Source: a virus
Length of the DNA stretch: 35,875 nt
Direction: 5' to 3' (one strand)
IMG/VR virus record: IMGVR_UViG_3300031688_000057
Location: 1 to 35,875 of that record
Shown: in pieces, positions 17,008 to 34,263 of the stretch
How positions within the stretch are numbered: the stretch's first letter is position 1
How the letters are laid out: every line of letters starts with the position of its first letter
Notes under the pieces: generated by a model
The model's database searches: none
What the model saw: the letters and a program-made list of their open reading frames with translations, nothing else
What the model was told of the DNA's origin: nothing
Position numbers and translations under genes: made by a program

Positions 17008-20000
17008 ATGGCAGAGCTAATACACACGTTTACATCAGGTAAAATGAACAAGGACCTTGACGAAAGACTTGTTCCTAATGGAGAATACAGAGATGCCCTA
17101 AACTTAGAGCTTGCATCTTCAGATGGCTCTCAGGTTGGTACTTTTCAAAACATAAAAGGTAACCTAGAATTAGCGTACAAGACATATAATGCCGTTACGG
17201 GGGCTAGAACATCATGGAGTAGCGCTTATATATCTAATTTAACTAATGCGATCTGCATAGGCTCCGTTGTCGATGCCAATACAGATAACATATATTGGTT
17301 TATATCTAGTAATGAAGTTAGTGCTATTGCATACTATAATGACGTTACAAAAGTTGTTGCTCCATTGATAGTAGATGTTAATAGTATACTAAACTTTAGT
17401 AAAGACTACTTAATAACCGGGGTAAATGTGCTAGAAGGTATACTAATGTGGACAGACAATCAAACCGAACCTAAGAGTATAACTATAAAAGACTGGGTGG
17501 GATCTACAAATGATTTTCTAACTCACTCCCAGATATATAGTAGAGCTTTTATTGAACAAGACATTACTGTAATAAAAAAATACCCATTGCAACCGCCTCT
17601 TATAACAGCTAGTTCTACGACTAGAGTTGATAACAATGGCAACCCCGCCACTATAGATACAAAAGTTAATTTTTCTTTTGTTAAAAATATTGGTGCAGAT
17701 CCTGCAAATCCTATCTATGTGGGGTTAACGCCCGAGGACGGGCCGCAAACAATGACATGGACCCAGCAGCAAAATCCTCCTTTTTATCAAGATGGTGATT
17801 ATTTGACATTTTCTTTTGCAAGCAATGAGCCTTTGTCTGAAGATGCTAATATCCGAGCTCAAGTGGTGTCTATAATACCTCCTGATGCCAACGCACCTCA
17901 AACAGGAGCTATCGTAACTATACTTTCTGTCGGGGAAGGTGACGAAACTAATGACGAGGTCGCTAAGGCGTTTGATGTAGTATTAGAACAAGAAGATCCA
18001 TTTTTTGAATTTAGATTTGCCAGATTTGCATATAGATATAAATATAACAATAATCAAATATCTGCATTTTCTCCTTTTTCTAACCCAGCTTTTTTGCCAG
18101 GCGAGTTTGAATATAATCCTAAAAACGGATTTAATTTAGCAATGGTTAACACTGTGAGGCAACTTGAAATATCTAGCTTTAGACCCGCTGATATTCCCCC
18201 TGACGTAGACACTATAGACATACTATATAAAGCCACAAACAACCCTAACGTGTATGTGGTAGATTCATTTACCCCTGAAGATACAGAGTGGGTAGCAAAC
18301 AGCTTTAATATAAAATCAGAAATAATAACCTCTGTTGTAAAGTCAAACCAAATATTAAGGCCCTTTGATAATGTGCCAAGAAAAGCTAGGGCGCAAGAAA
18401 TAACTGCTAATAGATTAATATACGGAAATTTTATTCAAAATTTTAACTTAAACAATCCGTACGCCAAAAACCAACCACTGCACATCAACCTAAGCGTAGG
18501 TACAGACATAAGAGAAATATCTACAGAACCAGGTGAAGGCGTAAATATAAACGGTTTAAATGTAGCGGAATCTGTAAAATCAATAAGGACCTATCAAGCG
18601 GGGGTAGCCTATATGGATGAGTACGGTAGAACAACTCCTGTGTTCACAAGTGCCCTTGGAGCAATAATTATACCCAAAAGACAAGCTAGTTTTTCTACAA
18701 AATTAACCGTTAAAATAAACAGCTATTTGCCTTATTATGATACAAATAAAGCTTTTACGCATTTTAAGTATTACATAAAAGAAACATCGCAACCATATTA
18801 TAATTTGTGTCTTGACAGGTTTTACAAAGCTGAAGACGGGAACCTTTGGCTATCATTTCCATCCTCTGAAAGAAATAAGGTAGATGAAGAAACATTTTTA
18901 ATACTAAAAAAAGAACACGACAACGCTATCCCCGTAAAAGAAGCTGCTGCAAAATACAAGGTATTGTCTATTTCGAATGAAGCGCCTCAGTTTTTAAAAG
19001 ATACAAAGCAGTCCAAGGGATCGGCTCCTCTTATACCTACAGGTTCGGCTACGCCTACTGTGGGATCTAATGAGTTTTTTATAAACGGGCAAGATTTTGA
19101 TGACGCATTTGGAGTTGAAACTAGATCTAAGTCAGGCTTAGTGTTAAGAATAACTGCTCCGGGAAATAATAGCGACTATTATAAAATATCAACATTTGGT
19201 TTAGCAGATGTTCCTAACCCACCTGTGAGGATTGTTACTTCTGAAGTTTTCGGGGACGACATGGCCTTTGCCGCAGACCCTAACACAGGGCTGCCAGTAG
19301 GAGGGCTATTGCTAAATCTATACGAAATTATATCAGAAAATAAGCCAGAATTTACAGGTAGATTTTTTGTAAAGGTAAACAAAGATGCTATTTTAACTGA
19401 AAAAATTGCGGCAGCTGCTGCAGCGGAACCGGTTTACGTTAGAAAAGCATTCGAATTTTTGTACCAAGCTCAATTTACTCAAGGAAGCAAAGGCTTTTGG
19501 AACGAGACATGGCGTAATGCAGACGGTCAGGGCAACGGCCCAAAAGGCAGATTGTTTATAAACTACATAAAAACAGATTGCGAAGGGCCTTTTAACGGGG
19601 TTGACGAAACAGGTACTATGAGATTAGCGGATGCCGCTGGTTATGGGGAGTGGAGGCAGACGGGAGGTATAGCTGAAAGAAACCCAGCAATGCTTAGGCA
19701 ACTAAACATTGGAGCGGGGGCAAGATTTCGTTTTGTTAAAGCTCCGGGTAGTACAATAACAGACATACCAAACACAGTCTATAGAATTACTCAATCAACA
19801 AATGAACAAAGAAGAAATACTTGGTGGTGCGGGGACAATGATAAAGACAGAAGAAAGCACATGTCTAACCAAATTGCCTACTGGACATTAAAATTCCAGA
19901 GGGTAGAAGATGGGGTGGCCGCTTTGGATTGGAAACCTAGAGAAGACGGGGGAATGTCCCTGTGGTCCGCCAGCACTTCTGACTATAGTAATTCGTTTAT

Positions 20001-21522
20001 AGGTATTGAATTTTTAGATACAATAGAAGATAATAATAGTTTTACTACAGACAATCCCGCTATATTTGAAACCGAACCAAAAGAGGCTGCAGAATTAGAT
20101 ATATATTGGGAAGTCCCGGGGGCTTATACAGCGGCCCAGCACGGGCAAACACATAATTTAGATTGGTTTAATTGTTACTCTTTTGGTAACGGCGTTGAGT
20201 CAGATCGCATTAGAGACGATTTTAATCAGCCTTTAATAGAGAACGGGGTAAAAGCTTCCGCTACGCTAGAAGAGCCCTACGGGGAGGAGCACAGGTCTAC
20301 GGGGCTTATATTCTCTCAAATATTTAATTCTACTTCAAGCACTAATAATCTTAATCAATTTATACAAGCGGAAAGTATTACCAAAGATGTAAATCCCGAG
20401 TACGGAAGTATACAGAAATTGCACACCAGAGACACTGATTTAATTACTCTGTGCGAAAACAAGTCAATGAAGATATTAGCTAAGAAAGATGCTCTATTCA
20501 ACGCTGATGGAAGCACTAACTTAACTTCTAATGCAGCAGTGCTGGGGCAGACGTTAACATTCCAGGGAGAATTTGGCATAGCTACTAATCCAGAATCATT
20601 TGCTGAGTTTGGTTTTAGAATGTATTACACAGACGCTAATCGAGGGGCAGTATTAAGATTATCAGGAGATGGCCTTACGGATATATCTGATTATGGCATG
20701 CACTCTTTCTTTTCAGATAACCTGCCGGCCAATACTAAAATACTAGGATCTTGGGATGTTGAAAAAAGGAATTATAACATAACGCTGAGCTCTTTAACAC
20801 CTTACTGGCAACAAACCCTGGGGGTAGGAACATTCGATAGACTGAACAAAGATCCTTTGTGTAACCAGTTCATAAATACGTTACCTACTTACAGCACTAC
20901 AGTTTCTTTTAAAGAGCGAATTAATGGGTTTACTTCAAGAAAAACTTATATACCCGAAGCAGCTGCTTACCTTAATAATATATACTACACATTCAAAAAC
21001 GGCAGGATATGGGAGCATGGGTTAAACACCGTGTATAATACTTTTTATGGCATAGGATCAGGCGCGCCCTCGTACAGTCCATATTACGAGAGCTCTTTTA
21101 ACACTATACTTAATGAAAACCCAGCTGTAGTAAAAGGATATAAGACATTAAACTACAGCGGTACCACTGCTAGAGAATACCTATATAAGCTAGCTGGTAG
21201 CGAAAGACTATACACTTTGGCTCAGGTACAAGCGGAGGGATTAACCCCTTCTAGCAATGTATTAGGATCCAAAGGATGGTATGTGAATTCTATAGTAACT
21301 GACTTACAAGAGGGGCAGATAAAAGAATTTATAGACAAAGAAGGCAAGAAGTTTAATTACATAAAAGGTATGGATACTTTTTACTTAAGCTCTTGTAATA
21401 CAAACGTAGATACTAAGGAGTTTAACGTGCAGGGGATAGGTAATCCTTCTGTTATAGTAATTCCTACTCAGACAGTGTTCACAGTGAAAAATCAAGCGGA
21501 CCCAAATTGTTCAACTCCGTAA
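17008..21522 (+). CDS. Large tail/stabilisation protein, P22 gp10-like or muzzle-type
   Basis: 1504 residues, starting six bases after the previous stop. The first residues, TFTSGKMNKDLDERLVPNGE, then YRDALNLELASSDGSQVGTF and NIKG, are the hallmark opening of P22 gp10-type stabilisation proteins and crAss 'muzzle' proteins. In these families the 'G.Yr.alN.....dG...G...n..G' signature begins a beta-propeller. The rest is beta-rich, with repeated propeller-like pieces (NAICIGSVVDANTDNIYWFI; ITGVNVLEGILMWTDN; ANRLIYGNF). A C-terminal part includes DGLTDISDYGMHSFF and a GSWDVEKRNYNITLSS strand. It would plug or stabilise the short tail and mount fibres. No signal peptide or coiled coil is seen. 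The exact fold of the C-terminal 700 residues is unclear. Confidence 0.68.
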   Translation: MAELIHTFTSGKMNKDLDERLVPNGEYRDALNLELASSDGSQVGTFQNIKGNLELAYKTYNAVTGARTSWSSAYISNLTNAICIGSVVDANTDNIYWFISSNEVSAIAYYNDVTKVVAPLIVDVNSILNFSKDYLITGVNVLEGILMWTDNQTEPKSITIKDWVGSTNDFLTHSQIYSRAFIEQDITVIKKYPLQPPLITASSTTRVDNNGNPATIDTKVNFSFVKNIGADPANPIYVGLTPEDGPQTMTWTQQQNPPFYQDGDYLTFSFASNEPLSEDANIRAQVVSIIPPDANAPQTGAIVTILSVGEGDETNDEVAKAFDVVLEQEDPFFEFRFARFAYRYKYNNNQISAFSPFSNPAFLPGEFEYNPKNGFNLAMVNTVRQLEISSFRPADIPPDVDTIDILYKATNNPNVYVVDSFTPEDTEWVANSFNIKSEIITSVVKSNQILRPFDNVPRKARAQEITANRLIYGNFIQNFNLNNPYAKNQPLHINLSVGTDIREISTEPGEGVNINGLNVAESVKSIRTYQAGVAYMDEYGRTTPVFTSALGAIIIPKRQASFSTKLTVKINSYLPYYDTNKAFTHFKYYIKETSQPYYNLCLDRFYKAEDGNLWLSFPSSERNKVDEETFLILKKEHDNAIPVKEAAAKYKVLSISNEAPQFLKDTKQSKGSAPLIPTGSATPTVGSNEFFINGQDFDDAFGVETRSKSGLVLRITAPGNNSDYYKISTFGLADVPNPPVRIVTSEVFGDDMAFAADPNTGLPVGGLLLNLYEIISENKPEFTGRFFVKVNKDAILTEKIAAAAAAEPVYVRKAFEFLYQAQFTQGSKGFWNETWRNADGQGNGPKGRLFINYIKTDCEGPFNGVDETGTMRLADAAGYGEWRQTGGIAERNPAMLRQLNIGAGARFRFVKAPGSTITDIPNTVYRITQSTNEQRRNTWWCGDNDKDRRKHMSNQIAYWTLKFQRVEDGVAALDWKPREDGGMSLWSASTSDYSNSFIGIEFLDTIEDNNSFTTDNPAIFETEPKEAAELDIYWEVPGAYTAAQHGQTHNLDWFNCYSFGNGVESDRIRDDFNQPLIENGVKASATLEEPYGEEHRSTGLIFSQIFNSTSSTNNLNQFIQAESITKDVNPEYGSIQKLHTRDTDLITLCENKSMKILAKKDALFNADGSTNLTSNAAVLGQTLTFQGEFGIATNPESFAEFGFRMYYTDANRGAVLRLSGDGLTDISDYGMHSFFSDNLPANTKILGSWDVEKRNYNITLSSLTPYWQQTLGVGTFDRLNKDPLCNQFINTLPTYSTTVSFKERINGFTSRKTYIPEAAAYLNNIYYTFKNGRIWEHGLNTVYNTFYGIGSGAPSYSPYYESSFNTILNENPAVVKGYKTLNYSGTTAREYLYKLAGSERLYTLAQVQAEGLTPSSNVLGSKGWYVNSIVTDLQEGQIKEFIDKEGKKFNYIKGMDTFYLSSCNTNVDTKEFNVQGIGNPSVIVIPTQTVFTVKNQADPNCSTP

Positions 21523-21550: not shown

Positions 21551-23131
21551 ATGGCATTTAATAACTTTACAGTAAGCGTGGTAAGCTTTAACGAAACGGC
21601 AGGCGTTGACTGGACAATAGCAAAACCATCTGTTTCTTTAATAATAACACCCAACACAGGGTATACTGTAACCGCAGTTGATTTTTCACCAATAGTGCCT
21701 TTGCCTACTTATGTTAATAGTGTTGTTTTCACTCAAAACGGGGCCTTTGTAAATTGTGTTATAACTTATATTGCGCCAAACATAATGCCTAGTGCGGACG
21801 TGCTTATATCTCTTTGTATTAAGGGGAGTGCTGTAGAAAGACAAATATGTGTTGCCGGTGTGATATCTCAGTGTGACGTTAGTAATTGCAAATCCCCTAT
21901 TGCAGGAGACCCTGATGTGCCCTATAGCGCATGCCAAGTTTATGGATCTACTGGAGTTGTAGTCGCTAGCTATTTTGTAAACGCTGAATCTGGACATTAT
22001 TTTCCAACAACACCTAGTTTATCGGTTGTTATCGGTGATCCAAATAATTATACTATTACGGGCACTGAAGGATATGATAGTGATGGGAACTTAATAAGCG
22101 TGACTTTCCAGGTATCTTATAATTTTCCATTAGCAGATGTTACTGGAGACAAAATATGCTTAACAGCACATGCGGTTGTAGTATACAATCCCCAAGTAAA
22201 AATAACCTCTTATTCTTTTCCTATAGCAGGGAATGTACCTAGCGGAGGATTAAATACGAGTTTTAATGTATTTGGCATAGAGGGTGCCGCTTGGAATTTA
22301 GTATCTACATCTACCGGATTAGGCATACCAATTGCGGCTACATCTGGTGTGCTAGATTCCACCGGGACAACAGCAATAGCGGCTAGTTTCCCTAGCGTAA
22401 ATGTAGATACAACGTATACAATTACTTTGTCAGGGGATTTAGCCTCTACTTTCGACACCCCGGCGGGGCAGCCTTCCACGATAACAATATATCAGTATGT
22501 TAATACAACTTTAGGATTTAGGTTTAAAACCACTAATACTGATATAATTACACCGCTTCCTGTAACATCCTTGTCGTTCATACCAAATGTAGTTCCTTCT
22601 ACTAATTTTTACACATACGATGTAGTAGCAACCTCAAACGAAAATATAAACCTTGGAGGAATACCTAATCCCGGAGAATGGTCTAATCAAAACCAAAATA
22701 GCCCATTGTACGAATTTGGCGTGCAATCTCATAGCTTTCTGGTAAACAATTCTGCTTCGCCTAGTACATTGACGGCAACGGTTGTTGTAAGCGTTGATGA
22801 GACTGGCACACCTAGTGTTATAAGCGAATTAGATTTAGATAATTATTTGATCGGGGCTGGCTCGTATTCAGCCGTGGATTGCACAACGACCACGTTGTTC
22901 AACATAGATATATACCAAGGATGGATTAATGATCCTTCCACAGGCTTAGCTCCAATAACTTTTGCTTATAATATAGACGACGTGGTAGTTGTTAAAGACA
23001 CTATAAACGGAACGGAGTATTGCGTAAGAATAACAGGCACATCTACTACGGCCGCTACAACATTCATCAATACAGCTGTCAACAATGGCACTGGAGTTTA
23101 CGGTACCTGCAATCAGTGCGATGAACTATAA
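21551..23131 (+). CDS. Beta-rich virion protein, possible appendage/fibre with Ig-like domains
   Basis: 526 residues, rich in Thr, Ser, Val, Asn and Pro, poor in Lys, and almost entirely beta in pattern. Candidate Ig-like modules start near residues 1-85 (NTGYTVTAVDFSPIVPLPTY), 120-215 (YFPTTPSLSVVIGDPNNYTI) and 215-300 (TSYSFPIAGNVPSGGLNTSF; DTTYTITLSGDLASTF). The C-terminal part has VDCTTTTLFNIDIYQGW and ends in a Cys pair, YGTCNQC. Composition, position after the tail protein and lack of enzyme motifs suggest a surface-exposed appendage, decoration or receptor-binding protein. Several Cys residues are spaced in pairs (CVAGVISQCDVSNC). It has no coiled-coil trimer stalk, so a classical fibre is less certain. 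Confidence 0.6.
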   Translation: MAFNNFTVSVVSFNETAGVDWTIAKPSVSLIITPNTGYTVTAVDFSPIVPLPTYVNSVVFTQNGAFVNCVITYIAPNIMPSADVLISLCIKGSAVERQICVAGVISQCDVSNCKSPIAGDPDVPYSACQVYGSTGVVVASYFVNAESGHYFPTTPSLSVVIGDPNNYTITGTEGYDSDGNLISVTFQVSYNFPLADVTGDKICLTAHAVVVYNPQVKITSYSFPIAGNVPSGGLNTSFNVFGIEGAAWNLVSTSTGLGIPIAATSGVLDSTGTTAIAASFPSVNVDTTYTITLSGDLASTFDTPAGQPSTITIYQYVNTTLGFRFKTTNTDIITPLPVTSLSFIPNVVPSTNFYTYDVVATSNENINLGGIPNPGEWSNQNQNSPLYEFGVQSHSFLVNNSASPSTLTATVVVSVDETGTPSVISELDLDNYLIGAGSYSAVDCTTTTLFNIDIYQGWINDPSTGLAPITFAYNIDDVVVVKDTINGTEYCVRITGTSTTAATTFINTAVNNGTGVYGTCNQCDEL

Positions 23132-23528: not shown

Positions 23529-24170
23529 ATGATACCAGTAGGAGCCATAGGAGGCGCCGTATCAGGCCTTACAGGTATTGTAGGGGGAATGATAGGCAGC
23601 GGAAAAAGAAAGAGAGAACAAAAAGCAGCCCAGCAGGAATTTGCTACAAACAAAGCTAGAATGGAGGGGGCGGACACGTCTAACCTTGCGGCCAACATGG
23701 AGAATACCATGGAAGATTTAACTGTAAATACACAGGCAGCCGAATTCCAATCACAACAACAAGCCAGTGGATTCGCTAATACTATGGATAACTTATCCAG
23801 CGCAGCTGGAGGATCGGGTATTGCGGCTTTAGCTCAGTCATTAGCGGGGGCACAAAGCAATGCAGCTCAGGCATCGTCTGCGGACATAGGCAGACAGGAA
23901 TCTCAGAATCAAATGGCTGAGAGACAAATGGCTGGCAATTTACAAAACCAAGAATTACAGGGAGCATACGCTTCTAGAGCAGCGGAAAAAGATAAAACAG
24001 ATACAATGCTTGGTATGTCTCAACAAAGACTAGGAGCAGCAAACGCAGCAAGAGACAAAGCAACGCAATCTATAATGAGCGGTATTGGAAGCGTCGCGGG
24101 AGCCGCAGCTTCAGCAGCCTCAGGGGGCGTTTTAGAAGGTCCAGGAAACTTGATGAATGGCGCGTCTTAG
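23529..24170 (+). CDS. Probable internal virion protein, glycine-zipper N-terminus
   Basis: 213 residues. The first about 26 residues are hydrophobic and Gly-rich, MIPVGAIGGAVSGLTGIVGG then MIGSGKRKR. This is a glycine-zipper-like helix followed by a positive cluster and could insert into a membrane. The rest is a helical Gln/Ala/Asn-rich stretch (ATNKARMEGADTSNLAANM; QNQMAERQMAGNLQNQELQG) ending in a second Gly/Ala-rich helix (IMSGIGSVAGAAASAASGG). This resembles T7 gp14-type ejection proteins, which leave the head first and form a pore in the outer envelope. Its position before two larger internal-type proteins supports that. Assignment by composition and context. Confidence 0.62.
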   Translation: MIPVGAIGGAVSGLTGIVGGMIGSGKRKREQKAAQQEFATNKARMEGADTSNLAANMENTMEDLTVNTQAAEFQSQQQASGFANTMDNLSSAAGGSGIAALAQSLAGAQSNAAQASSADIGRQESQNQMAERQMAGNLQNQELQGAYASRAAEKDKTDTMLGMSQQRLGAANAARDKATQSIMSGIGSVAGAAASAASGGVLEGPGNLMNGAS

Positions 24171-24196: not shown

Positions 24197-25294
24197 ATGG
24201 CAAATAATCAATTAATACTAGGAGCGGGAAAAGCTGCAAAGAAATTCGTAGACATTGGAGGCGCAATAGGTCAGGGCTTTTCAGCAGCAAATCAATCTGC
24301 TAGGGGCTTTACTAGGCCTAAAACTGTTGCAAAAAACCAGGAGTATCAAAATAGAGTTAGCTCTTTAATGGGTAAAATGAAATCAGATATTGATTTTACT
24401 TCGTTTTCGCCTAGTGAAACAGCTTCCATGCGGACTTTCCTAGTCAATGAAAGACAAAAATATGCGGGGGCCGCTAAAACTTTAGCTAATATGACGGATA
24501 CAACTTCTCCAGAATACATGGGGCAAGTTGACATAATGAACGGTGTAAATAGCAGTTTTGTAAATTTAGCAGACCAGATTAAGACTTACAAGAAAAGCAA
24601 GGTAGAATTTGTTGACGGCATGATGAGTGGAGCGTATTCAGACGGCAATGAGGTTAGCAATACAAGACAAAACACATTGATGTATACAAATAAGGCTTTG
24701 TACGGATACAAAGATGAAGACGGTGACGGTATTGCAGATGACGGAACAAGTGCTTCTTTGACAATAATGGACGGAGGCGACATAGGTTTTAACATCGACG
24801 GAGAAGTAAAAGCTTATAATAAAAGCTCGATGCCCTTATTAAAAGATTACGAGTTAGGCGTTAAATTACTGAAAGACAACGAAGCAGTACGCAGGTCAGG
24901 CCAATTAGTTAATGAAGATGCCGAAAGAATGTATAGGCTACAATTAGAAAAATCTTTTTCCAATCAAGATTCGTTAAGATCTTTTATATATGATTTTGAA
25001 GATGAATTCCCTACAGAACAATTAGGAGCAGCATGGGAGGAAGGGACAATGACGGTTGATGAAATAAGAAAAAAAACTATAGAAAGATTGATTGAAAGTC
25101 GTAAGAAGGCTGGGCAAGATGGTTATAATGAAAAGAAAAGCAAGGATAATAGCCCAAGTAAAAGCAAGCCAAAAGAATTAGCTGGCATTATAGATGGGAC
25201 ATACTATATCAGAAGAAAAGACGGCTCTTTATTTCCTGTAGAAAATGAAGAAGAATATGATAAATGGGGTGATTGGTTTTATGCAAACACGTAA
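24197..25294 (+). CDS. Probable internal virion/ejection protein, 365 aa
   Basis: Starts at ATG 24197 after an AT-rich leader. The N-terminus LGAGKAAKKFVDIGGAIGQG is helical with small residues and resembles part of the SPAK protein at 4097. The middle is helical and polar (NQEYQNRVSSLMGKMKSDID). At 24713-24742 the sequence DEDGDGIADD (residues 173-182) matches the DxDxDG calcium-loop pattern of dockerin/thrombospondin-type loops. The C-terminal quarter is charged (KKTIERLIESRKKAGQDGYN) and has a SPSK variant motif, then GTYYIRRKDGSLFPVE. It lies between the glycine-zipper protein and the giant polyvalent protein, so a packaged, T7 gp15-like role is likely by context. Confidence 0.58.
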   Translation: MANNQLILGAGKAAKKFVDIGGAIGQGFSAANQSARGFTRPKTVAKNQEYQNRVSSLMGKMKSDIDFTSFSPSETASMRTFLVNERQKYAGAAKTLANMTDTTSPEYMGQVDIMNGVNSSFVNLADQIKTYKKSKVEFVDGMMSGAYSDGNEVSNTRQNTLMYTNKALYGYKDEDGDGIADDGTSASLTIMDGGDIGFNIDGEVKAYNKSSMPLLKDYELGVKLLKDNEAVRRSGQLVNEDAERMYRLQLEKSFSNQDSLRSFIYDFEDEFPTEQLGAAWEEGTMTVDEIRKKTIERLIESRKKAGQDGYNEKKSKDNSPSKSKPKELAGIIDGTYYIRRKDGSLFPVENEEEYDKWGDWFYANT

Positions 25295-25311: not shown

Positions 25312-28300
25312 ATGCCTAAATATAAAATAAATATAGACGGGAACTTTGTAATAAAGGAAGTCTCTGAAAAATTAGTACCGTATCTTATAAGAAAACACCC
25401 AGATGCGGTGCTTATTGAAGGAACACCCCCAACTGAAAATTTTCAGAACGGAGATGCGGAGACCGATGCGTCTGTAACTCCGGAGACAAACCAAGCATCA
25501 AATGGGGATTCCACCTCGGAAGATGGTTTTTCGGTGTCCAGACTAGATGAGGTAGAAATACAAACAGACGGTTTTGGAAATGCAATCACAGTAGAAGGTT
25601 GGGAGAAAGAGACTAGTGCGTATATTGCGGATAATCCGGATCTTTCTGCAGACGAGCTATCTGCCTGGATAAATAGACCTGGCGGCCCAACAGAATCTCA
25701 GTACACTTTTCAAGAAGAAAAAGAAATATACAAAGCTAATAAAGAAAAACCTAAGCTGACTGATCCGCAGTATAGTCCTAGTGATTTTATTGTAGATTTA
25801 TATGAAGACCCTACTTTCGATATAAACAAGCCCGCTTTATCAATTTACGACAATGAGCTTAAATTTTTAAAGAATAAACAAGAAAATTTCCCTACTATGT
25901 CTACAGAAGGGGCGGAAATACAAAAACAAATTGATCAGCTTGAATATAACAAGCAAAACGAGCTGGAGAAGACTAGAACTCTTGATTCTACGCAGAGAAA
26001 CAAATACAAGGCAAAAATAAATGACGCCGAAGCGTACTTTAACAGCGGTATTGCTAAATACGATGCTGGTGAAATTTCCACAGAAGAGTTCGAGGTATAC
26101 GCTGAGCGTTATGATACTATGCAGGGTGATGTGTTTGAAACTTCTTATGACAAAGAAAAATACCAAGAGCAAAACTTGTTGTTAAACGAAATAACCACGG
26201 CCCGAGCGAAAGACACATACAGTAGCTTTGGCAAAAATGACTTAGGTGATCAAACAAGAGAAGAAAAAAAAGTATTTGATCAACGGGTAGAGGACGAAAT
26301 AATAAACAATGTTTCAGGTAATAAAAAATTAAAGGGCAAGATCCTTGACGGTAATGCACAGCTTGCCGAAAAAGAAATGATTATTACAGGCGCTAAAAGT
26401 ATAGTGCTAAATAAATCCTATGATGACTACGTATCCGAATATAACAAAGCTGAAGATATAATATTTGCCGCAGATGAAGTTGCTAATATAACGCCTGAAG
26501 TAGCTAACGCTGCTCAAGGTATACTTTATAATGCTGCTATAAAAATACAAGACACTTCTGCTGAATTAGCTTACAATATTGGAGATCAGTCTTTCGCTAA
26601 TAATTTTCAAATGACTGATGACTTTGAAAAGTGGAGAGATCGCCATATTGACGGAGGCTATGTAGGTGATATTGGGGATGCCGTAGGTACTTTTATTCAA
26701 GGAGGGCAAAAGTTAATAGGTGACGCAACGGTTGGTACCTCTATATGGCTTAATAGAGTGGCTTGGGATGTTATAGATTCTGATTATTTCGAAGACAACT
26801 ACACCAGTTTAGATATGATTAGTGACACCTTTACCAACTATAACAATATTAATTATTTTGGCGTAAGCGATAAAGGAGGAAGCCTATCAAAAGACGGTAT
26901 AACTTTTAGATCCGGAACCAAGACCATTGCAAATATGTTACCCTTTACAATAGGTGTTGCGCTTGCCGCTCGCAAAGGAGACGTTAAGGGTCTTAGAAAC
27001 GCATACTCTATTATGCGCGGTATGGGAGCCAGCGCTAATACCATTAACAAAGTGAAAATGGGCGGTTTTGCTTTTAGAGCTACTGTTAACGACAATTACT
27101 TAGAAGGTAAGCAAATGGGCCTAAGCAATAGCCAATCACTAGCTTATTCAACAATGACCTCTTTTTCCACTGCATTAGTGCAGGGTATAATGCCTGACAG
27201 TAGATTTTTTAGCACAACAGTCGGCGCCTCTATAAAGAAAACTTTTATAGAAAACCTTAAGAAAGCCACGACTAAAGACGGTATAAAGGTTGTAACAAAA
27301 CAATTCATAGACAATCTTATAGGGGAAATAGGAGAGGAAGAAGCTGAATTGCTTTTAAATGATATAGCTAAGATAACAGTAGGGCTAAGTAATGAAACAA
27401 AGTTTTTTGATTTTGATACTCAATTTGAAACTATAGCGGGTACTGTACTTCTAGCAGGAAGCACCTCCGCAGTCATGGCACCTGCTCAGTTTAAAAACTA
27501 TAAAAATAAAATATACAACCAATATCGAACACAAGGTGCTGATGTAATAAAGACGCTCCAAGAAACTAAGAAGGTTGTAGAAAATAAATTAAAGAAGGCT
27601 AGAACCCAGCAAAGTAAAGAAGCGGCTCAAAGGCAACTAAACGAAATAAATTCTGCTATAGAATATGGTTCTGATATTATAAAAGCTATTAACGTAGCTC
27701 CTGATGTAATGAATGACGAGCAAATAGATTTACTAGTGGAAAAAAATCAATTGCTAGATAAGAAATCAAAAGCAGATCCACGTTATACCAAGGGCATCGA
27801 TGCAGAAATTGAGGCAATAAATGCTAAAATAGAAAACTCTCAGGTTACACAGCAGTCCGCAGTTATACAGCAAAAAACAGAAGCCGGGTCTAAAAAAATC
27901 GCTGAAGCTTTAGGTATTAAATTTGATAAAGGAAATACTTCGAAAGTTAAAGAAGCGGTTGAGCAGCAAAATGCTGATATAAATAAAAGAAACGAAGGTA
28001 AAAAGGAGGCTGATAAAGAAAAGTTAATAAATGTAGAAGAAGCTGTAAAGCAGAATGGGTTTATCATGCAGAACCCGGATGGAACACAAAGCATAGTAAT
28101 TAATGAAGATGTTGCAGGTACAAATAAAGCGGTAACCACAGCCCAGCACGAATTACTTCACGGGGTGTTACTCAAAACGATTACAGACAACCCAGGCGCT
28201 ATAGTGCAAATGAGTAATGCTCTTAAATCTGAAATTGACAAAATGATACCAACTGGTATTAGCTTTAACAATTCTTACATACAAGGCAGATTAGAGGCCT

Positions 28301-31300
28301 ACAAATCGGATCCTTCCAGTGTAGAAGCCGAAGAGCTGTTAACTATATTTTCAGAAGGTTTAACCCAGGGCTATATTGCTTTTGAAGAAAATGCTTTTAC
28401 TAAAATAGGTGATTTTATTCGTCAAGGTTTACAGAGAGCCGGAATGAAAGTTACATTTAATTCAGGTAAAGACGTTTTTAATTTTATAAAAGATTTTAAT
28501 AAAAGCGTAATAGACGACAAGGGGCTAGGCAAGGGATTAACCAAAGCAGCTACCGAAGGTGTTAAAATTGGCAAAAAATTAGGGGCAAGCAGCGCTTTTT
28601 TATACGATGCAAATTTTGAAGCAAATGTTCAAAGTGCTTATAATAATCCTAAATTAGACTTACCTAGAAAAGCCCTCGGCATTGCAATGGCTTATAGAGC
28701 CAGAGTCCAAGAGCTAATAAACAAATCTTCTAGCAATGTATTTGGATCAAGAGAAAAAACCAACGCAATTGAGTACGCTTTAATTGGCAGAGACAATCCT
28801 AACAGTGTATACAACACAGTTTTAAATTACGATAGTAATTCTAAAATGTCTTTGGACGAAACTATAGGAAGAACTATAGCGGGTATAGGAGAAAACGCAG
28901 CTTCAAAACCAGGATTTAAAGCCAGCCGTAAGTTTACGGAGGCTGAGGAAGATCGAATGGAAGCTATTGACCAAGAGATTGCGGAAATAGAGGATGATCT
29001 TAATAACAATTACATAGACCTTGACACTCACGACAGAAAAATAGCAAAGCTTGAGGAGGAATACGAAAACATCGAAAATCCACCTAAAGAAAAAGCAACG
29101 CCAAAGCCTAAGGCTAAACGTAAAGCTGGCTCAGATATTGATGCCCCACAAGCATCTAAAAAAGACGAGCAAAAATTAGGGGATGTTACTGCAAAGTCTA
29201 AAAAGAAGCTAGACGCTATAGGTAATAATCCAGATGGTTTTAATCCAAATGATGGAGCTATATACGAAGTTTTAGCAGGAATGATCCGCTCTAAAGTAAA
29301 AGCTTTCAAAACATCGGGTAACAATATAGTTAATCTTACAAATCTTCCAGGATTTGAAATGGATAACATGGTTAGTGAAACTATTACTAGCCTTATACCC
29401 TATATAAAGAAATTTGATCCCACTAAAAACGACTCTTTATTCGGCTATACAATGGCACAGCTAAGTAATAGAATGAGAGGTGCGTTAAAGACTGGTAGAG
29501 TGACTGAAAACACCTTTACGGAGGACGTAACAGCCGCTAAGAATATTACAGCAGAAGAAAGCCAAGCCCCTGTAAAAGAAAAACCTAAGTTTAGAAAGCT
29601 TACACAATCAGGAGTGGTGTCTACTGAGGTTGTTGATGCGATCCGTGCAAAATTAAAATCTACATTACGTACTTTAAAAACGCGTATGGATGCAGCTGTT
29701 TCCAATAATCGTACTATAACTCCGCTTATTGCTGAGATACAATATGAGATGGGCAAGCAAGCTGACATAGATCTTAAGAAAGCTATGGGTGGAAAAAAAG
29801 ATCTAAAGCTTAGAAAGTTTTTACTAAAAGGCAAAAAATCAATATTAGAAAATCTTACTACAACATTCTTAATGGGTAAAGATGGCAATGGTGGTTTTCC
29901 TCAAGCTATACAAAAGAAAATAGATGGTAAATTTGTATCGTATCCAGGGTGGGTTGGTAAAAAGATAGACAGAGAAACCACAGGCACAGATAATGCTGGT
30001 AGAACTTCTGGAGCAGAAATTGTTAGAAGGGTGCCAAATGTAAATAGAGTTGTTACAGATCAAGAGTTTTTATCTCAAATACTAGACGAAACAGGTAATC
30101 CAATAAGAGGTAGAAAAGAAGCATTAGCTAAAGCTATGGCGGAGGAAATTTCATTTGAAATATTTTCAGAAGATTTAGCAGATCCCGCTAGTGAAATAAG
30201 CGAAGCTTTTGAAAGCAATCAAGAACGTCAAGGGGCGATACTTGCTGAAAACTTTATACAGCAAATAGAAAAAGATGTAGACAGAGGTAATATTAAATTT
30301 TCTTTATCTTTTAAAAGTCCCCAATTTATAAACAGGCACAACATAGCTTTAGATATACTTGTAGATAAAGGAATGGATGCTTACAATGATTATGTAGACA
30401 GCATCGAAAATGTGGAGCTTAGAAATTTAGTGAGAAATTACTTTGATAACAATCTTTGGAGAGCAGGTAAATTTGCTGATTACAAAGCTAAAAACAAGGG
30501 GCTATCTTATGAGAAATTCATTAAAAAAGTCTTATCTGCTACAAATCAAAAAAATGTAAAAGTTAAGCTTATAGGAAATAAGAAAGGTATAGGAGGCGAT
30601 TTAATATTACAGATAGGCACAGAGGTTATACAAATAGAGCTAAAGCTTAATGATAATGCCCAAATGAGTAGCTTTACTGTTAGATACAGCGAGCAAAATA
30701 AAAAGAAAAACGTCGCTTCATTTACAAAGCCGGAAGTTTTAAAAGCCGAAGGTGGCCAAGCATTATACGATGCACTAAATAGCTCGAAATACAAGGAAAA
30801 AATAAAAGCATACCACAAAGCCGCTTTAGATTATGCAAAAAAGGAAGGATTCTTCGCGGAAATTAAAAACGGCAAGTTACGCGCCGAAGGAGATGTCTTT
30901 ACTTGGTTGGTTGCAAAAGGTGAATTGGCAAAATTAAATTTACAGGTAGCATCGAATGAAACTGTTATACAAGAGATGTATAATAATGAAGGCGTGTATT
31001 ATGTTGATTTTGGCAACAAGGGGCTGTTTTATATGGGCGAAGACATAAATGGCTTGGGTGTCCCTGAATTAAAAGCTGACGTAACCCTATATGCTAGGAT
31101 GACAAAGGGATCTAAAAACAAACAGGGCATATATACTGCTTCTATGAGGGTTTTTCCTATTATCAACAGCGAAATTAAAGAATCAACCACTTCTTTATCT
31201 GACGTAAAAGAAATAAAAAAGTTTATTCAATCTGCAGTAAATACTGAAAAAATAAACAAAGGTAATGTTGAAAATAAAGCAATAACAGAAGGCCTTAGAA

Positions 31301-34263
31301 ATTCAAAGCCAGCTAAAGGTATTAGCGTATTTGACTTTGACGACACACTGGCCCGCACGAAAAGTAATGTGCTATACGTTATGCCCGATGGTACAAAAGG
31401 TAAGCTTAATGCTGCTCAATTTGCTGCTCAGTCAGAAGCATTATTAGACCAAGGCACCGAGTTTGACTTCAGTGAATTTAGCAAAGTAATGAAGGGGGAG
31501 CTAGGGCCGCTGTTTAGCGAAGCCCAAAAGAAAGAAGGCAAGTATACTAATAAAGATATATTTGTTTTAACAGCAAGGCCTGCTAATTCAGCGGCTGCAA
31601 TACACGCGTTTTTAAAGTCGGAAGGCTTAAACATACCTATAGAGAATATAACTGGTTTAGGTAATGGATCCCCAAAAGCTAAGGCTGACTGGATGGTTGG
31701 TAAAATAGCGGAAGGATATAACGACTTTTACTTTGCTGACGATCACATGGGTAATGTTAAAGCTGTAGGTAAAGCTCTTAAGGGCGAAGGCGTTAAAGGA
31801 CAAACAGAATTATCTATAGTAGATTTTAAAAATCAACCTAAAGCCGTAAGAGATATACTTAACACGTTTGATGTTAAAGGCCCAACCCAAAGATCCAGAG
31901 TTAAATTTAGCAAGGGACTAAACAAAGGCTTAAACGATATGCTTGAAAGAGCCTCTGACATAAAGTCTAGAAAAAGATTAACTAGGGTTGAAGGTGAAAT
32001 ATTAGGCAAGAATAAAGGCAAATGGAAAATTTGGATGCCTTCGTCTCTTGAGGATTTTAGGGGTTTAACGGAATACACATTCGCTGGTAAAGGAAGACAA
32101 GGGGATGCAGATCAAAAGTTTTTTCAAGATGCTTTAGTCACTCCGTATTGGAGAGCAATAAACGAAATAGACGTAGTAAAGCAATCTCTTAAGAACGGAT
32201 TTGCGGCACTAAATAAACAATACAAGCCTGTACTAAAAAAGTTAGGTAAGAAAGTTCCGGGCATGGCTTACACCCATGATCAGGCGCTACGTGTGTACCT
32301 TTGGAATAAGGCGGGACATGAAATACCAGGTCTTACTAGAAAGCAAGAGAGAGAGCTTGTCAGGTACATTCAGGGCGATGCAGAGCTAATGGCTTATGCG
32401 AACGGCGCACTCCAGGTAGCTCAGAAAAAAGAATGGTCTAAACCATCTGAATATTGGGCCGTGCAAACTATATTATCTGATATTAATAACTTTACAGAAA
32501 AAACGGGTAGAAAAGAATACCTTAAGGAATTTATAGACAATGCTGATCTAATTTTTAGTGAAAATAACCTTAACAAAATAGAAGCAATCTACGGTAAATC
32601 CCACAGGGACGCTCTTGAAGACATATTGTACAGAATGAAAAACGGCGTAAACAGGGCCGCTAGCATGAAGTCTAATGAGCAGCGATGGAATAACTGGCTT
32701 AACAATTCCATTGGAGCCATAATGTTCTTTAACAGAAGATCCGCCCTATTGCAAACGTTGTCTACAGTTAACTTTGTAAACTGGAGTGATAATAATCCCA
32801 TGAAGGCCGCTGCCGCATTTGCTAATCAAAAACAATTCTGGACTGATTTTGCAATGATATTTAATTCACCTAAATTAAAGCAAAGAAGAGCGGGCCTAAA
32901 GACGGATGTAAATGCCGCTGAACTTGCTAGTGCTGTTACAGGCGCCACAGACAAAGCCACGGCTGCATTAAACTACTTACTTAAAATAGGATTTACGCCT
33001 ACTCAAATGGTAGATAGTTTTGCTATAGCTTCCGGAGGTGCTACCATGTATAGAAACCGGATTAAGACTTACTTAAATGAAAAAGGGGCAGATGGCGAAT
33101 CTAAGTACACGCAGAAGCAAGCCGAAGATAAAGCTTTCGCAGATTTTGTTAGAGTTTCAGATGAAACACAGCAATCAGGTGATCCGGCGTTAATATCTTC
33201 TGATCAGTCTAGTTCCTTGGGTAGAGTTGTATTAAACTTTATGAACACTCCTATACAACTTAATAGATCTATAAAAAAGTCTGCTCAAGACATATATAAC
33301 AGAAGAAGAATGCCTGGTCAAACACAGGCTCAAAGTGATTTTACAAACTTTAGCAAAATAATATATTACGGGACTATACAAAATGCTATTTTCTCTTCGC
33401 TCCAAGCTGCTATGTTTGCTCTTATACCAGGATTTAATGATGACGAAGAAGAAGAAGGTGACCCGACAATGGAGGAAAAGACAAACAAGAAACTTTTTAG
33501 CGTTATAAATTCAATGGTGGATACAACCCTTAAAGGAGGATTCGGTTTACCTGGAGCTGTTGTATCTATTTTAAAGAACTATATAATAGAGTACCAAAAG
33601 CAAGAAGACAGGGGATTTTTAGCAGACGACTCCAAAACGCTTATAGCTCTACTTAATATATCTCCAGCCGTAGGGTCTAAGGCTAGAAAGGTTGTAAACT
33701 TTTCTAAAGGCGAAAGATTTGACAAAGAAGTTATAGGTGAAAGAGGGTGGGATGTTACTATAGATGGTCGATTTAATTTAAGCCCACGGTGGTCCACAGC
33801 TGGTAACATTATAGAAGGGTTTACCAATATACCAATGGCTAGAGCAGCAGATGAAATTAATTCTATTACAGAAGCATTAGATTCTAGAAACACTGCATGG
33901 CAAAGAATAGCATTGGCATTAGGCTGGAAAACCTGGAATGTTGGAGCAAAGAATGAAGAAAATGATTTTCTAGAATTCGAAATTAAAACTGAGAATAAGG
34001 AGCGCAAGAAAGAAGAAAGAAAAGAAAAAAGAAAGAAAGAAAAGCTTCTTAAGGAAATGCAGGAGAAAGATAGAAGATCTAAAATGTCAAAAGACGACAG
34101 AGATTTAGAGGACTTTATTAAGAAAGAAAAAAGAAGAATAAAGTCTAGGAATACAAGAGCTAAAAATAAAAGGAAAAAAGATTCGATTGCTCAAGTAAAA
34201 TCAGATGCTTTAATAGCTAAAATAGAAAAAAAAAGAAAAGAAAAAGCTAATAAAAATAAATAA
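25312..34263 (+). CDS. Giant multidomain polyvalent/internal virion protein, 2983 aa
   Basis: One open frame of 8952 bases with no interruption. The N-terminus MPKYKINIDGNFVIKEVSEK looks like a short conserved head, then acidic linker and coiled coils. Hydrophobic stretches occur near residues 540-555 (TIANMLPFTIGVALAA) and 722-735. Signatures: HExxH at 946-950 (TAQHELLHGVLL), a zincin-type protease motif; a helical segment at about 1353-1392 (IPYIKKFDPTKNDSLFGYTM) like sigma-70 region 2; Asp1763...Glu1776-x-Lys1778 (GGDLILQIGTEVIQIELKLN), a PD-(D/E)xK nuclease pattern; and an HAD phosphatase, DFDDT 2008-2012, VLTARP 2085-2090, FADDHMGN about 2141. Residues 2205-2760 resemble the C-terminal part of large phage internal proteins, with a hydrophobic helix at 2684-2708. 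The last 90 residues are Lys/Arg-rich. Iyer and Aravind called such composites polyvalent proteins, injected to counter host defences and prime takeover. Confidence 0.8.
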   Translation: MPKYKINIDGNFVIKEVSEKLVPYLIRKHPDAVLIEGTPPTENFQNGDAETDASVTPETNQASNGDSTSEDGFSVSRLDEVEIQTDGFGNAITVEGWEKETSAYIADNPDLSADELSAWINRPGGPTESQYTFQEEKEIYKANKEKPKLTDPQYSPSDFIVDLYEDPTFDINKPALSIYDNELKFLKNKQENFPTMSTEGAEIQKQIDQLEYNKQNELEKTRTLDSTQRNKYKAKINDAEAYFNSGIAKYDAGEISTEEFEVYAERYDTMQGDVFETSYDKEKYQEQNLLLNEITTARAKDTYSSFGKNDLGDQTREEKKVFDQRVEDEIINNVSGNKKLKGKILDGNAQLAEKEMIITGAKSIVLNKSYDDYVSEYNKAEDIIFAADEVANITPEVANAAQGILYNAAIKIQDTSAELAYNIGDQSFANNFQMTDDFEKWRDRHIDGGYVGDIGDAVGTFIQGGQKLIGDATVGTSIWLNRVAWDVIDSDYFEDNYTSLDMISDTFTNYNNINYFGVSDKGGSLSKDGITFRSGTKTIANMLPFTIGVALAARKGDVKGLRNAYSIMRGMGASANTINKVKMGGFAFRATVNDNYLEGKQMGLSNSQSLAYSTMTSFSTALVQGIMPDSRFFSTTVGASIKKTFIENLKKATTKDGIKVVTKQFIDNLIGEIGEEEAELLLNDIAKITVGLSNETKFFDFDTQFETIAGTVLLAGSTSAVMAPAQFKNYKNKIYNQYRTQGADVIKTLQETKKVVENKLKKARTQQSKEAAQRQLNEINSAIEYGSDIIKAINVAPDVMNDEQIDLLVEKNQLLDKKSKADPRYTKGIDAEIEAINAKIENSQVTQQSAVIQQKTEAGSKKIAEALGIKFDKGNTSKVKEAVEQQNADINKRNEGKKEADKEKLINVEEAVKQNGFIMQNPDGTQSIVINEDVAGTNKAVTTAQHELLHGVLLKTITDNPGAIVQMSNALKSEIDKMIPTGISFNNSYIQGRLEAYKSDPSSVEAEELLTIFSEGLTQGYIAFEENAFTKIGDFIRQGLQRAGMKVTFNSGKDVFNFIKDFNKSVIDDKGLGKGLTKAATEGVKIGKKLGASSAFLYDANFEANVQSAYNNPKLDLPRKALGIAMAYRARVQELINKSSSNVFGSREKTNAIEYALIGRDNPNSVYNTVLNYDSNSKMSLDETIGRTIAGIGENAASKPGFKASRKFTEAEEDRMEAIDQEIAEIEDDLNNNYIDLDTHDRKIAKLEEEYENIENPPKEKATPKPKAKRKAGSDIDAPQASKKDEQKLGDVTAKSKKKLDAIGNNPDGFNPNDGAIYEVLAGMIRSKVKAFKTSGNNIVNLTNLPGFEMDNMVSETITSLIPYIKKFDPTKNDSLFGYTMAQLSNRMRGALKTGRVTENTFTEDVTAAKNITAEESQAPVKEKPKFRKLTQSGVVSTEVVDAIRAKLKSTLRTLKTRMDAAVSNNRTITPLIAEIQYEMGKQADIDLKKAMGGKKDLKLRKFLLKGKKSILENLTTTFLMGKDGNGGFPQAIQKKIDGKFVSYPGWVGKKIDRETTGTDNAGRTSGAEIVRRVPNVNRVVTDQEFLSQILDETGNPIRGRKEALAKAMAEEISFEIFSEDLADPASEISEAFESNQERQGAILAENFIQQIEKDVDRGNIKFSLSFKSPQFINRHNIALDILVDKGMDAYNDYVDSIENVELRNLVRNYFDNNLWRAGKFADYKAKNKGLSYEKFIKKVLSATNQKNVKVKLIGNKKGIGGDLILQIGTEVIQIELKLNDNAQMSSFTVRYSEQNKKKNVASFTKPEVLKAEGGQALYDALNSSKYKEKIKAYHKAALDYAKKEGFFAEIKNGKLRAEGDVFTWLVAKGELAKLNLQVASNETVIQEMYNNEGVYYVDFGNKGLFYMGEDINGLGVPELKADVTLYARMTKGSKNKQGIYTASMRVFPIINSEIKESTTSLSDVKEIKKFIQSAVNTEKINKGNVENKAITEGLRNSKPAKGISVFDFDDTLARTKSNVLYVMPDGTKGKLNAAQFAAQSEALLDQGTEFDFSEFSKVMKGELGPLFSEAQKKEGKYTNKDIFVLTARPANSAAAIHAFLKSEGLNIPIENITGLGNGSPKAKADWMVGKIAEGYNDFYFADDHMGNVKAVGKALKGEGVKGQTELSIVDFKNQPKAVRDILNTFDVKGPTQRSRVKFSKGLNKGLNDMLERASDIKSRKRLTRVEGEILGKNKGKWKIWMPSSLEDFRGLTEYTFAGKGRQGDADQKFFQDALVTPYWRAINEIDVVKQSLKNGFAALNKQYKPVLKKLGKKVPGMAYTHDQALRVYLWNKAGHEIPGLTRKQERELVRYIQGDAELMAYANGALQVAQKKEWSKPSEYWAVQTILSDINNFTEKTGRKEYLKEFIDNADLIFSENNLNKIEAIYGKSHRDALEDILYRMKNGVNRAASMKSNEQRWNNWLNNSIGAIMFFNRRSALLQTLSTVNFVNWSDNNPMKAAAAFANQKQFWTDFAMIFNSPKLKQRRAGLKTDVNAAELASAVTGATDKATAALNYLLKIGFTPTQMVDSFAIASGGATMYRNRIKTYLNEKGADGESKYTQKQAEDKAFADFVRVSDETQQSGDPALISSDQSSSLGRVVLNFMNTPIQLNRSIKKSAQDIYNRRRMPGQTQAQSDFTNFSKIIYYGTIQNAIFSSLQAAMFALIPGFNDDEEEEGDPTMEEKTNKKLFSVINSMVDTTLKGGFGLPGAVVSILKNYIIEYQKQEDRGFLADDSKTLIALLNISPAVGSKARKVVNFSKGERFDKEVIGERGWDVTIDGRFNLSPRWSTAGNIIEGFTNIPMARAADEINSITEALDSRNTAWQRIALALGWKTWNVGAKNEENDFLEFEIKTENKERKKEERKEKRKKEKLLKEMQEKDRRSKMSKDDRDLEDFIKKEKRRIKSRNTRAKNKRKKDSIAQVKSDALIAKIEKKRKEKANKNK

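Follow-up and report, generated by a model that had tools for sequence, protein, structure and literature searches.

Polyvalent proteins of phages and conjugative elements, which are presumed to be delivered (Iyer et al. 2017, PMC5512222), combine a number of unrelated domains with predicted enzymatic functions in a single chain. Their peptidases have been described as having HExxH and a Glu in a later helix, and a zincin is also fused to the virion RNA polymerase (vRNAP) of N4 (PMC5512222). The terms phosphatase, polynucleotide kinase and sigma are nowhere used in its main text (PMC5512222). In crAss001, gp47, gp49 and gp50 were detected in particles, and megadaltons of cargo protein are stored (PMC10172136). 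PNK-type HADs for RNA repair are known from jumbo phages as separate proteins (PMC7824862).

Here, we analyzed the giant protein P0001 (2983 aa), encoded by a single unbroken ATG-to-stop ORF in a 35,875-base virus record, the whole of which is referred to as the window (Table 1). The initial annotation had described a large polyvalent-type composite, and this description stands: a zincin, a PD-(D/E)XK domain and a HAD domain, each with conserved motifs, share one chain, and in AlphaFold models their motif residues are assembled in the expected cores. As in polyvalent proteins, the predicted zincin has HExxH plus a later-helix Glu and the gene lies among virion genes, and nuclease and ART-like modules are also found in the P0001 family. 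No LPD-type Pfam family matched P0001, LPD14 was hit in one relative (E 0.005), and LPD-annotated proteins are among the structural neighbours of the P0001 C-terminal core. The P0001 family differs from polyvalent proteins in a constant Pnkp-like HAD, a sigma-region-2-like domain and a slot inside the HAD. Because the domain style and gene position fit polyvalent proteins, and the main text of PMC5512222 does not mention phosphatase, polynucleotide kinase or sigma, we take P0001 as a variation on them. The sigma-like domain, the HAD slot and the exchange of blocks between close relatives were not part of the initial annotation and are added by the present analysis.

Table 1. Coordinates of P0001, its predicted domains and neighbouring genes in the window
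Feature	Position	Strand	Evidence
Muzzle-like tail protein, same module, upstream	17008..21522	+	PF25731 E 3.7e-6; phrog_14478 virion structural protein E 7.7e-128
213-aa protein, possible virion/cargo companion	23529..24170	+	Weak similarity (E 0.001) to phi38:1 gp99, annotated structural
365-aa protein, possible cargo companion, directly 5' of giant gene	24197..25294	+	Position alone; without confident family match
P0001, modular polyvalent-type giant ORF	25312..34263	+	ORF; 197 relatives in IMG/VR
Exchangeable block A, aa 60-1200: N-terminal part and zincin	25489..28911	+	Identity comparison of relatives
Zincin-like metallopeptidase domain, aa 860-1085	27889..28566	+	74/76 members; model; fold matches; Elemovirus homologue
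HELLH zinc motif, aa 946-950	28147..28161	+	H, E, H invariant in 47 sequences
E1008, predicted third zinc ligand, Glu in later helix	28333..28335	+	Invariant in 47 sequences; model
Sigma-factor region-2-like helical domain, aa 1305-1397	29224..29502	+	Fold matches; hhalign P 6.7e-6; 60/76 members
Exchangeable block C, aa 1681-1980: nuclease in P0001	30352..31251	+	Other contents in L002/L004/L005; divergent PD-(D/E)XK in L003
PD-(D/E)XK nuclease-like domain, aa 1725-1970	30484..31221	+	Best fold match Hjc; ~12-14/76 members
D1763...E1776-x-K1778 signature	30598..30645	+	Kept in 10/10 aligned members with this block
HAD phosphatase domain, Pnkp 3'-phosphatase-like, aa 2000-2170	31309..31821	+	5uj0_B fold match; phrog_415; motif conservation
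HAD motif I, D2008-F-D2010-D-T2012	31333..31347	+	Sequence; conservation in relatives
Insertion slot after HAD motif I, aa 2028/2029, empty in P0001	31395..31396	+	Relatives carry kinase or ART-like domain
Constant C-terminal helical core (C-core), aa 2200-2885	31909..33966	+	Present in all aligned distant relatives; model; BFVD matches

The frame of P0001 is real and not a chance frame, because it is conserved over its full length in close relatives and is under purifying selection (dN/dS 0.03-0.19 across all blocks tested). In IMG/VR, 198 stretches were matched, 197 of which encode a P0001 relative, and 78 loci were retained; domain counts within the family were taken over 76 members using profiles built inside the family. 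The family is thus common in environmental viral contigs, and tblastn searches of cultured phages with full-length P0001, the C-core or the zincin found no relative. All nine matches among bacterial and archaeal contigs are MAG contigs. Six phage contigs with a P0001-type protein (L085, L086, L087, L088, L089 and L090) lie in MAGs labelled Maricaulis, Aliivibrio, Woesearchaeota and Ilumatobacteraceae and were probably misbinned. BLAST coverage of P0001 was uneven: virtually every distant relative covered aa ~2000-2880, ~80% covered the zincin region, and a minority to half covered the remainder. The counts by family profile for the zincin and the sigma-like segment are those of Table 1, and the P0001-type nuclease reaches 14 members when two partial or weak cases are included.

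Pfam and PHROGs scans of whole P0001 returned no match, and it was domain-wise scans, together with the relatives, that allowed domain assignment. A PDB profile search by sequence gave no meaningful match for either region tried, Foldseek against the PDB gave nothing below E 0.001, and PADLOC gave no match. The fold claims come from VIA-align 2, in which the HAD match is clear and those of the zincin, sigma-like and nuclease-like domains are modest (Z 6-8, a range reachable by unrelated models). The alignments were made on contiguous segments, and the absence of a family from the VIA-align 2 or Foldseek lists is uninformative.

The HExxH protease signature reported in the initial annotation is supported. 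H946, E947, H950 and E1008 are the sole invariant positions among 47 aligned sequences, and the AlphaFold model shows a zincin core in which HELLH and E1008 lie in helices 104-118 and 164-180 (numbering of the model), after a small sheet, the same helix arrangement as in polyvalent-protein peptidases (PMC5512222). Lethal-factor-type zincins were the fold matches (Z 6.3), and a homologous zincin was detected in the giant protein of Elemovirus (E 8.9e-10).

Further examination of the HAD domain placed it closest to polynucleotide 3'-phosphatases. Besides motif I, P0001 contains T2087-x-R2089, K2124 and D2143-D2144; the motif residues are retained in 65-68 of 68 relatives, and 53 aligned sequences show no variation at T2087, R2089, K2124, D2143 or D2144. 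The top fold match is the T4 Pnkp phosphatase 5uj0_B (Z 13.3, 126 aa, 2.4 A), and four Pnkp entries (Z 13.3, 12.8, 12.6 and 12.1) head the list, followed by Nir2 at 11.4, less than one Z unit below the lowest Pnkp row. In PHROGs, the polynucleotide kinase family phrog_415 (E 3.3e-4) is the only match below 0.001. With its DxDxT, S/T, K and acidic motif IV, the modelled HAD core is Pnkp 3'-phosphatase-like. The HAD signature noted in the initial annotation therefore holds with respect to its conserved motifs and the HAD core in the model, but it is not generic: as predicted here, it is a Pnkp-like constant core of the family. The 3'-phosphatase fold and the DxDxT, T/S-x-R, K and DD motifs of T4 Pnkp and of Pnkp1 of Pnkp1/Rnl/Hen1 are kept in P0001; unlike these enzymes, the Pnkp-like HAD of P0001 sits in a giant, probably virion-borne protein.

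Relatives of P0001 carry additional domains within this HAD, always at the same site (P0001 aa 2026-2029). The spacing between motifs I and II is 72-75 residues in most members, 257 in three and 272 in six. An insert of ~200 aa in L027, L030, L053, L055, L059 and L060 is a predicted P-loop kinase, matching AAA_33 (7.5e-12), Zeta_toxin (4.4e-11) and the polynucleotide kinase family phrog_505 (7.7e-9); from these matches, PNK and zeta toxin are not firmly separable, zeta-type kinases matching equally well. In L033, a kinase precedes the C-core, and no HAD motif I was recognised. The kinase domain is thus present in 7 of the 76 members and absent from P0001. The insert of ~185 aa in L004, L005 and L039 was assigned as ART-like by its motifs YHGTS ... 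HYTKS alone, with no profile match in support. Kinase and phosphatase are joined in T4 Pnkp and Pnkp1 and likewise in some P0001 relatives; in the latter, the kinase is inserted into the HAD behind motif I, whereas it is N-terminal in T4 Pnkp and Pnkp1. The kinase inserts of L060, L027 and L033 also match phrog_16619 and phrog_12810, of which one is a PHROGs 'minor head protein' family and the other a family of 788 positions with no assigned function. Since one of these is annotated as a minor head protein family, virion-borne kinases may be more widespread.

These data bear on the substrate of the HAD. A role at nucleic-acid ends appears likelier than that of a generic phosphatase because a PNK-like kinase is nested in a Pnkp-like phosphatase in relatives, with the zeta-type match equally good. 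The domain could alternatively act on small molecules, such as nucleotide or sugar phosphates or defence signals. The TxR motif occurs also in lipid- and small-molecule-type HADs, zeta-toxin-like kinases phosphorylate a small sugar nucleotide, and other HAD phosphatases reach Z 9-11 in our fold list. We nevertheless consider small-molecule substrates unlikely, given that all four Pnkp entries rank above every other HAD, that the sole significant PHROGs match is a polynucleotide kinase family, and that the nested kinase is PNK-like.

The sigma-like domain matches the fold of many sigma factors at Z 5.5-6.3, with single-domain rows covering 64-84 aa at 2.2-3.5 A. In an independent profile test against 20 sigma factors drawn from two bacterial MAGs, hhalign gave P 1.1e-4 for this region, and P 6.7e-6 after the addition of four phage sigma factors; for six control regions of P0001, P lay between 0.13 and 0.71. 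The signal was weaker when only three primary sigma factors were used (P 0.008, with one control at 0.016). By predicted helical fold and sequence profile, aa 1305-1397 is sigma-region-2-like; region 4 was not recognised. Binding to RNA polymerase by this domain is hypothetical, because the positions aligned with polymerase-contact residues (region 2.2) are variable across the P0001 family. In contrast to the giant vRNAPs of N4-like and crAss-like phages, which also derive from the virion module, P0001 has no recognised polymerase, and the sigma-region-2-like domain is its sole transcription-like element. We also considered, and rejected, a relationship to virion polymerases of the crAss or N4 type, as P0001 gave no polymerase match; the T7-type RNAP profile, searched without a positive control, also found no match in ten related contigs. 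Separate phage-encoded sigma factors of 252-260 aa are present in six of ten related phage contigs, L113-L116 among them.

The nuclease-like signature of the initial annotation was retained with a change of status. Its D, E and K are kept in every aligned member with this block and lie on the core sheet of a PD-(D/E)XK fold in the AlphaFold model, the best fold match being the Holliday-junction resolvase Hjc (1hh1, Z 7.8, 113 aa, 3.3 A); however, the domain is an exchangeable accessory found in a minority of relatives. The exchange is seen in comparison with close relatives, whose C-termini are ~75-95% identical to P0001 and whose flanking genes are mostly 60-93% identical. L002, L003, L004 and L005 have only ~20% identity to P0001 in aa 60-1200 and 1680-1980, against 65-95% across much of aa 1200-1660 (L005 also differs at 1261-1400). 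L001 is the mirror case, with 76-100% identity in aa 1-1200 (block A mostly 85-100%) and 80-98% in 1680-1980, but only 20-50% at aa 1261-1440, around the sigma-like segment, where nucleotide identity falls in step. At the sequence level, these patterns show block-wise domain exchange among close relatives. Moreover, the blocks of P0001 differ in age: against L001, dS is 0.165 for the zincin, 0.61 for aa 61-540 and as high as 1.9 for the C-core. The low value of the zincin block, compared with 0.46-1.9 in the rest of this gene pair, suggests that this block recombined recently.

The C-core is all helical in its model. Its BFVD neighbours comprise close uncultured homologues and proteins annotated as PolyVal, LPD, MuF-C or nuclease, the annotated neighbours aligning over several hundred residues at ~12% identity. 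The hydrophobic C-terminal part claimed in the initial annotation was found only in weak form: the helical C-terminus is not strongly hydrophobic, with a Kyte-Doolittle mean of at most 1.19 over 19 residues (aa 2687-2705), and the highest value in P0001 as a whole, 1.33, is at aa 707-725. Neither segment qualifies as a clear membrane helix.

With regard to gene setting, P0001 is the final large gene of a virion-protein operon, downstream of terminase, portal, capsid-type proteins, a 1504-aa muzzle-like protein and several small genes. Giant genes occupy the same last slot after a muzzle-type gene in Flavobacterium phage elemo (Elemovirus) and in Cellulophaga phage phi38:1 (gp101). Both products are annotated 'structural', by similarity in the case of phi38:1, and their overall sequences are largely unrelated to P0001; neither gave a HAD match, and the Elemovirus giant has no DxDxT motif. 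The virus nearest by TerL, ctfjg026, has a giant gene in the same slot with a weak link to P0001. Delivery at entry is plausible, because P0001 is the last large gene of the virion operon and giant proteins annotated as structural occur in the same slot.

Two other roles for P0001 were weighed. We infer its packaging from gene order, the 'structural' syntenic giants, the zincin common to the Elemovirus giant and the kinship of the C-core with polyvalent proteins. Alternatively, it could be an unpackaged enzyme acting late in the lytic cycle, in assembly or lysis. Such a role is very improbable in view of the gene following the virion operon, the structural annotation of its syntenic counterparts, and a C-core structurally akin to polyvalent proteins, which are thought to be delivered (PMC5512222). 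It is also quite improbable, if slightly less so, that P0001 is a structural scaffold or ejection-channel protein whose enzyme-like domains are remnants with little catalytic role. Such a protein would agree with the C-core alone being present in all relatives, with nuclease and HAD-slot inserts missing from most of them, and with the naming of slot equivalents in other phages as structural; it would not agree with zinc and HAD residues that vary hardly or not at all across dozens of relatives while their surroundings fall to ~20-50% identity, nor with dN/dS of 0.03-0.08 in the zincin and HAD blocks.

With a confidence slightly above even, we therefore prefer to regard P0001 as a modular polyvalent protein that has a Pnkp-like core and exchangeable slots and most likely travels inside the particle to enter the cell during infection. 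The C-terminal helical core may serve packaging, ejection or anchoring, and P0001 would be ejected from the particle into the cell at infection. The zincin may then cleave the P0001 chain or a partner, freeing the modules. The HAD, whose fold and catalytic residues are predicted, would strip 3'-phosphates from nucleic-acid ends, as Pnkp phosphatase does, and this removal might allow repair of ends made by host nucleases. The sigma-region-2-like domain could contribute to early transcription by binding DNA or the RNA polymerase of the host. The nuclease-like domain is one among several alternative contents of an exchangeable slot, and a second slot, inside the HAD, takes a PNK-like kinase or ART-like domain in relatives. 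A bolder version, which we regard as doubtful, is a polymorphic-effector design of a virion-borne protein in which a constant C-terminal delivery core is combined with a Pnkp-like phosphatase that heals ends and can dock different enzymes in its interior (a PNK-like kinase, an ART-like domain or none), and an injected sigma-like domain steers host polymerase to early phage genes. If the preferred reading is correct, phages that lack a virion polymerase may bring functions in transcription and nucleic-acid repair into the cell ahead of the expression of their own genes, and a single protein would evolve through module swaps, as polymorphic toxins do. Close relatives with near-identical C-termini and different contents would then make an arms race over modules directly testable.

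The virus is a marine podovirus, probably with a host among Bacteroidota. Its TerL is 63.5% identical to that of spring virus ctfjg026 and 45% to that of Flavobacterium phage elemo; the other TerL matches were to Cellulophaga, Tenacibaculum and Maribacter phages, so that only flavophage groups and one uncultured virus were matched. The muzzle-like protein scores just under the cut-off of the crassvirus muzzle family PF25731 (25.8 versus 27 bits), and a crassvirus muzzle-like protein thus occurs in a podovirus whose terminase points to flavophage groups instead. The 526-aa product of 21551-23131 is 43-52% identical among close relatives, clearly less conserved than most adjoining genes, and is possibly a host-contact protein. 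In addition, 1024-2622 encodes a GroEL-like chaperonin of phage (phrog_5725, E 1.8e-137), and GroEL and GroES genes are present in the Elemovirus genome; these chaperonins could help with folding of the giant cargo proteins.
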